Below, one piece after another: positions 2,968 to 3,636 of a DNA stretch of 47,286 nt. The DNA is from an uncultured Acetobacteraceae bacterium (GTDB lineage Bacteria; Pseudomonadota; Alphaproteobacteria; Acetobacterales; Acetobacteraceae): contig CAMKWS010000011.1 in the NCBI GenBank assembly GCA_946476985.1, forward strand, positions 1 through 47,286, written 5' to 3'. The translations under genes and the position numbers were made by a program. Within the stretch, counting starts at the first letter, position 1. Each line of letters opens with the position of its first letter. The notes beneath the pieces are model-generated. The model was not told the origin of the DNA and ran no database searches. It worked only from the letters and a program-made list of their open reading frames with translations.

Positions 2968-3311
2968 GCGGTGACTTAAAACTGGTTCCGAAGATGCTCT
3001 GTAGCTATCCCCTCCTTCACCCCGATGGAAGGTTTTGCGACAGATTGTATGCGATAGAGAGCTTGAAGGGGAAGTATTATTTTGATGTTTATTTTATTGC
3101 AAGTAGTATTTGCGGTTAAATTATAGTTAATAAAAATTAATAAAATAATTATTTTATGTAATTAAAGAAAATAAAGTAAATATATTTAAAATAATATGAT
3201 TTTAAATAAATAATATAAAAATTATATTGTTAATTAATATATAACAAAAATGTTATAATAATATATCTGATGCCACTATCGGTTTTTTAGTTTTTCTATT
3301 TTGGGATGATT
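2968..3311. other. AT-rich intergenic region between tRNA-Arg(CCU) and the repeat-protein locus
   Basis: No gene is seen here. About 3060-3300 is almost pure A/T, unlike the rest of the window, and contains a perfect 7-bp inverted repeat (TATAACA-AAAA-TGTTATA, 3240-3257). It lies downstream of the tRNA and upstream of the 163-aa gene (both minus strand), so it should hold the tRNA transcript end and the promoter of the 163-aa/repeat-protein pair. No integrase or direct repeat of the tRNA 3' end was found. Confidence 0.6.
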
Positions 3312-3636
3312 TGGTGTCCACGGAAGGATTCGAACCTTCGGCCCCAGGATTCATACCACTTCGACTTTCGCCGCCACTCCTTTACTGTAGGGAGTGTTCG
3401 TGGTCTGGACTGTCTCTTCACCACAGGGTTCCCCTGCCGCGGTGTCGCCCGTACAGTCTCTACACCTTCCAGCACGATATAGCTGGCTTGGCTCGGGATT
3501 GGCCTAGCCCCCTTAGATAAACCAAAAGAGGACGGTAGCGTTCCCCGAATTTGAGCGAATTCACCGGATGGTTTGCCAGTTCCGGTGCCCAATTCATTTA
3601 GGAATCCTGTGCTCTATCCTGCTGAGCTACGTGGAC
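3312..3636 (-). tRNA. tRNA-Arg(CCU), split by a group I intron in the anticodon loop
   Basis: Read on the minus strand, exon 1 (3636-3600, 37 nt) gives acceptor GTCCACG, TA, D stem GCTC/GAGC with loop AGCAGGATA, A, anticodon stem CAGGA and loop TTCCT. Exon 2 (3351-3312, 40 nt) gives AA, anticodon stem TCCTG, a 5-nt variable loop, T stem GAAGG/CCTTC with loop TTCGAAT, acceptor CGTGGAC, discriminator A and an encoded CCA. Joined, the loop is TTCCTAA with anticodon CCU, all four stems pair, and the mature tRNA is 77 nt. The 248-nt interruption falls directly after the third anticodon base. tRNA-Arg(CCU) is a known group I intron host in alphaproteobacteria (the Agrobacterium case is established). 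The gene decodes AGG, so it is probably needed and depends on splicing. Confidence 0.95.
3352..3599 (-). ncRNA. Group I self-splicing intron (tRNA subgroup IC3-like), 248 nt
   Basis: The 5' splice site follows U36 (exon CCU). Internal guide GGG pairs with CCU including the expected terminal U.G wobble, and intron AA pairs with UU to extend P1. P2 is visible as CACCGG/CCGGTG capped by TGG/CCA. A P-like element (AAATTCGGGGAACGC, near 3538-3552) matches the style of bacterial tRNA introns. The R element (GTAGAGACTGTACGGGC, within 3441-3466) and S element (AAGAGACAGTCC, near 3407-3418) form P7 through GACTGT/ACAGTC, with P8 (CAGGG-GAA-CCCTG) between them. A P9-like hairpin (ACTCC/GGAGT) and a GAAA-capped stem follow. 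The last intron base is G, as required. There is no room for a homing endonuclease gene, so mobility in cis is not encoded. Confidence 0.93.

Follow-up and report, generated by a model that had tools for sequence, protein, structure and literature searches.

What is raised by a tRNA gene with an insert in its anticodon loop is, firstly, what the insert is; secondly, whether it was inherited with the gene or brought in from elsewhere; and thirdly, whether the cell depends upon its removal. The gene considered here, for tRNA-Arg(CCU), lies in a stretch of 47,286 nucleotides (the window) of a genome of 1,881,306 bases on 27 contigs, whose host genus is Bombella, family Acetobacteraceae. A preliminary description of the window had proposed a group I intron in a probably essential tRNA and had left its origin, vertical or transferred, open. 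The explanation that best accounts for the evidence below is, with little room for doubt, a group I ribozyme intron that belongs, as an ordinary member, to the tRNA-Arg(CCU) family of alphaproteobacteria, residing in a Bombella genome and apparently passed down with its gene.

The interrupted gene

When introns were allowed, ARAGORN returned from a 421-nt stretch a tRNA-Arg(cct) 325 nt long, in which ttcct and aatcc flank a 248-nt intron, at exactly the coordinates first proposed (Table 1); a run without introns found no tRNA in the whole window. The intron separates base 37 from the third base of the anticodon (insertion 37-38 in ARAGORN), and these bounds agree with the earlier claim of a 248-nt insert immediately following the anticodon, the position taken by alphaproteobacterial tRNA-Arg(CCU) introns. 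Detection on the spliced exons, a check that the preliminary description had suggested, gave a complete 77-nt tRNA-Arg(CCU) in which every arm is present and CCA is encoded; this bears out the full cloverleaf read there by eye. A U.G pair at the 5' splice site (CCU/GGG in P1) and a terminal G (intron 3' end GUAUG) are both present. The folding energy of the precursor is better than that of 100 out of 100 shuffles (z -3.08), and its best fold retains the acceptor and T stems of the tRNA.

Table 1. Coordinates of the split tRNA-Arg(CCU) gene and of the intron helices within the window.
Feature	Position	Strand	Basis or remark
tRNA-Arg(CCU) gene, interrupted	3312-3636	minus	ARAGORN, introns allowed
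5' exon, 37 nt, last bases the anticodon CCU	3600-3636	minus	ARAGORN, spliced and unspliced sequence
Group I intron, 248 nt, last base G	3352-3599	minus	RF00028 match; ARAGORN intron bounds
3' exon, 40 nt, CCA encoded	3312-3351	minus	ARAGORN
P1, CCUAA (3602-3598) / UUGGG (3592-3588)	3588-3602	minus	U.G at 5' splice site; 97% paired, 134 sequences
P3, UCGCUC (3558-3553) / GGGCGA (3450-3445)	3445-3558	minus	100% paired
P4 (3548-3543/3498-3493) and P6 (3492-3490/3466-3464), with P5, P5a and P6a between	3464-3548	minus	Pairing in 134 introns
P7, guanosine-binding helix, GACUGU (3458-3453) / ACAGUC (3413-3408)	3408-3458	minus	Encloses P3' and P8
P8, closing stem CACC/GGUG	3419-3444	minus	P8a 100% paired
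P9 region: closing stem ACCAC/GUGGU, P9 hairpin, GAAA-capped P9b	3355-3404	minus	95%, 91% and 100% paired

No intron-encoded homing endonuclease is recognisable, as had been claimed: the 98-aa ORF that crosses the intron has no Pfam match at E 0.01, and an endonuclease was rejected on that ground. Just past the 3' end of the gene, positions 3080-3300 are very AT-rich intergenic sequence (13% GC vs 50% for the window); a scan for promoters and terminators near the gene was uninformative, its promoter-like matches falling mostly within AT-rich sequence. At 2-2422 on the minus strand begins a long, repetitive protein rich in Gly, Ser and Thr (807 aa up to the window edge), which looks surface-protein-like by eye and has no Pfam match at E 0.01.

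Identity of the intron

The Rfam group I model RF00028 matches the minus strand at 3605-3397 over its full length (model 1-253 of 253), scoring 32 bits with E 7.7e-6 when 2 kb were searched. The score is below the curated gathering score of 50 bits, so that a default Rfam scan of the window is silent, returning no group I match at the gathering score. The model check proposed for this locus thus gave a match that is full in extent and short in score. Among relatives, the best-scoring Arg intron (47.9 bits) also lies under the cut-off. A search of 60 genomes found RF00028 matches in 19 and a score over the cut-off in three, which as far as ARAGORN resolves them comprise two tRNA-Leu, one unresolved and no tRNA-Arg. 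Of the 20 other RF00028 loci, 12 show the same insertion directly after a CCU anticodon.

As the score fell short, the structure was tested directly on relatives, by scoring 73 named pairs on 134 distinct tRNA-Arg introns. These were drawn from 241 loci, which yielded 169 Arg introns of 212-297 nt; the other loci held other tRNAs or other introns, were cut at the locus end, or varied beyond the search expression. Helix names follow the Rfam alignment and the usage for related introns. Covariation was counted with a custom script, two-sided changes being accepted if present in at least two sequences, and was compared with shuffles that ignore the relatedness of the sequences. Over the 73 pairs, 91% of cells were paired, against a mean of 79.4% and a highest value of 79.8% in 100 such shuffles, and two-sided changes occurred in 38 pairs, where the shuffles averaged 29.5 and never exceeded 34.

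The helices contribute unequally to this result. The paired fraction rounds to 100% in P3, P4, P5, P6, P8a and P9b. Two-sided changes occur in three of the six pairs of P3 (0-1 with the partner slid), three of the four pairs of P8a and all four of P9b (0 when slid, in both), and in P4, P5 and P6 no alternative pair type occurs in more than one sequence. In P2, P2b, P5a, P6a and P9 the slid controls have nearly as many two-sided changes, or more, and it is therefore the paired fraction alone that speaks for these stems (99, 76, 87, 92 and 91%, respectively, vs 12-56% slid). The outer P8 hairpin is paired in 36% of cells in the register of the window and in 80% in a register shifted by two, so that this hairpin, as the window has it, is wrong for most relatives. 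The group I core (P3-P8, P4-P6 and P7) is present, with covariation in P3 and P8a, and with P7 paired in 88% of cells without covariation among the Arg introns. All the parts that the preliminary description had listed, namely P1 with its U.G pair, P2, the R/S pairing as P7, P8, a P9-like hairpin and the terminal G, are accounted for. The evidence thus supports reading the insert within 3312-3636 as a group I intron that follows the CCU anticodon directly and in which no endonuclease can be recognised; it may belong to subgroup IC3, which has peripheral and joining features of its own.

Distribution and inheritance

A group I intron in tRNA-Arg(CCU) was reportedly described from Agrobacterium by Reinhold-Hurek and Shub in 1992. 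Named Agrobacterium loci do share the insertion after CCU and the core with the window, in keeping with the precedent first invoked for this locus, and differ from it in sequence mostly in the peripheral stems. A scan of named genomes, with a pattern that departs little from the sequence in the window, found at least 118 stretches; among those listed are Rhizobiaceae, Bartonella, Phyllobacteriaceae, Aureimonas and Rhodobacterales, as well as Azospirillum, Magnetospirillum and many acetic acid bacteria. The tRNA-Leu(UAA) introns of relatives (L003, L004 and L017) are similar to the window intron in core sequence; unlike it, they are inserted inside the anticodon, and they fall on a separate, non-Arg branch (100/90).

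Within Bombella, both exons, split, were recovered by exon search from all 11 genomes searched, the others compared including Bombella mellum, apis, dulcis, pluederhausensis and saccharophila (G003, G004, G007, G008 and G010). This refutes an absence of the intron in three genomes suggested by a strict-filter Rfam search (matches in seven of the ten others), and the introns of those three were extracted (L054, L059 and L062). The neighbourhood is equally constant: in the window the gene is divergent from a DUF3576 gene and leuS (TIGR00396, 982 bits), and in 10/10 other Bombella genomes both genes adjoin the split tRNA in the same arrangement. In all, leuS was looked for at 28 loci, with a match in 21 and none in seven (L103, L137, L192, L194, L098, L150 and L129, of which L103 and L194 end too near to tell). 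In Saccharibacter sp. EH611 (L097), leuS and the DUF3576 gene likewise adjoin the intron pattern; in Gluconobacter (L207, L109) and Asaia (L164) the divergent orientation is kept, with about 2-3 kb separating the genes, and at a further Asaia locus (L192) the DUF3576 gene alone is in view. Acetobacter lovaniensis (L157) and Komagataeibacter rhaeticus (L119) have leuS within the same 8 kb in another arrangement, and leuS was not seen in the loci of Neokomagataea thailandica (L137) or of Agrobacterium and Bartonella (L098, L150, L129).

The final tree held the 134 tRNA-Arg introns and six introns of other tRNAs, and its bootstrap had not settled. In it the ten distinct Bombella introns group together as one clade (100/99), which is nested in a 54-row clade made up of Acetobacteraceae only (97/96), itself inside a 74-row clade (93/92); all 134 Arg introns stand apart from the six others (100/90), as common descent would have it. 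The row nearest to the window intron is that of Bombella saccharophila, with 87% identity over 225 columns. In the first careful tree, in which an outgroup row (L012) was 144 nt too long, a 76-row clade (92/93) left out seven of the 83 Acetobacteraceae rows. A quick tree, with the same overlong row, set Gluconacetobacter and Komagataeibacter apart from the Bombella branch (57 rows, 86), whereas the careful trees join most introns of these two genera to it. Inheritance within Bombella hence looks vertical, judging by the split gene in every genome of the genus searched, leuS beside it in the ten others and the nesting of the clade among Acetobacteraceae, and the intron has probably been shared since an ancestor common to other acetic acid bacteria. 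The intron phylogeny called for in the preliminary description thereby returns a likely answer, for Bombella, to the question of origin left open there.

Across the wider family the distribution is patchy. Of a sample of 150 Acetobacteraceae genomes, 53 gave a split-gene match covering both exons and the intron between them (query start no later than 6, end no earlier than 321) and 45 an uninterrupted anticodon arm; the two lists share no genome, and 52 genomes appear on neither. The leuS-linked site holds an uninterrupted gene in two genomes (G063 and G149) and an interrupted one in a third (G099). A simple reading is that, elsewhere in the family, the intron has been lost or gained. The G099 gene spans 391 nt (L256:6743-7133), and its intron, at about 314 nt, is longer than any of those extracted above. 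This patchiness, together with the uninterrupted leuS-linked genes, could suggest that the intron entered the Bombella lineage by recent horizontal transfer, and a survey by Paquin, Heinfling and Shub in 1999 reportedly has horizontal transmission in its title. Losses, however, account for empty sites as well as gains do, and the presence of the intron throughout the Bombella genomes searched, the constancy of leuS beside it and its place inside an Acetobacteraceae-only clade all make such a transfer very unlikely.

The family to which we assign the intron has been documented in other hosts. BbgpI of Bartonella bacilliformis is, like that of the window, a group I intron in tRNA-Arg(CCU), and PMC7717549 records its splicing in vivo and in vitro; the Bartonella introns compared occupy another branch of the tree than the window's. 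Closer to Bombella, the Asaia bogorensis genome paper, in the portion compared, notes that in Asaia, Acetobacter, Gluconobacter and further acetic acid bacteria a group I intron homologue splits one tRNA-Arg, as marked by footnote c of its Table 1, with the Granulibacter row unmarked (PMC4596401). These belong to the same family and have a split tRNA-Arg as in the window, but are of other genera, and that portion gives no anticodon, structure or history for the split gene. A literature search for Bombella together with a group I intron found no paper in the collection covered. The Bombella intron is thus new as an instance, of an intron family already known from Agrobacterium, Bartonella and acetic acid bacteria.

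Possible dependence on splicing

Whether the cell needs this gene turns in part on what other tRNAs it has. RF00005 matched 42 tRNAs in the host genome, of which ARAGORN named 41; their Arg anticodons are ACG (two), CCG and UCU, with no CCU. The remaining match (L093), at a contig end and without an ARAGORN call, has by eye an anticodon arm with GCU, as in Ser. BLAST with the joined tRNA returned the two split halves and otherwise only lower-identity or short matches from the window's genome, where a contiguous CCU anticodon-arm pattern had no match. The named set lacks Ile and Tyr and is therefore incomplete, whether through the 27-contig draft or through tRNAs missed by the search. As far as these searches of an incomplete inventory reach, a second, contiguous tRNA-Arg(CCU), which would have cast the split copy as a pseudogene, is rejected. 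Of the 798 Arg codons in 19 window ORFs that were listed mechanically, 27 are AGG, and tRNA-Arg(UCU) could read AGG by wobble. The supposition that the tRNA is probably essential is accordingly left unproven by the UCU tRNA and by the rarity of AGG, although these searches found no contiguous copy.

From its family, we infer that the intron is removed by two-step GTP splicing. The pre-tRNA would fold its intron into the group I core, and P1, in which U36 as the last anticodon base pairs with a G of the internal guide, would set that base at the active site. The GTP bound by P7 would then attack the 5' splice site, and the freed 5' exon would attack after the terminal G of the intron, the joining of the exons yielding the sole tRNA-Arg(CCU) found in the genome. 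The general two-step group I reaction with GTP is set out in the part of PMC3984707 compared here.

Two further explanations concern what such an arrangement is for, or whether it works at all. Conservation of the intron in 11/11 Bombella genomes is compatible with its having been kept as a selected control point, by which a single CCU tRNA for rare AGG codons is made dependent on GTP and Mg2+; we consider this highly improbable. The split gene might instead have decayed into a pseudogene, its intron no longer able to splice and AGG being read by tRNA-Arg(UCU). This would fit the presence of that tRNA, the scarcity of AGG and the Rfam score below the cut-off, but is barely credible for a gene whose exons give a complete cloverleaf with CCA, whose intron core is intact and which is retained in all 11 Bombella genomes searched.

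Implications and other introns in relatives

The locus matters in two ways. Firstly, ARAGORN without an intron search misses the gene, so that Bombella genomes may be annotated as lacking tRNA-Arg(CCU). Secondly, a leuS-linked site that within one family has the gene both with and without the intron offers a usable set for studies of how group I introns without an endonuclease are gained and lost. Apart from these, the finding is ordinary.

Relatives also carry group I introns in other tRNAs. One lies in a tRNA-Thr(GGU) of the same family (L012:1562-1844, genome G034) and another in a tRNA-Lys(UUU) of the same class (L019:1477-1775, genome G046), the spliced exons forming a complete tRNA in each case; neither tRNA is mentioned as an intron host in those parts of the literature compared here. 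A third intron, also in G034, interrupts a Leu-like tRNA (L021:1475-1769), which, when spliced at the judged ends, has a longer anticodon loop and is called Pyl or Leu (ctag) by ARAGORN, and which is either an odd tRNA or a misjudged boundary. The strongest Rfam group I match of the 60-genome search, at 76.2 bits (L002:1501-1726, genome G042), lies not far from a contig end, with a tRNA-Met call nearby.
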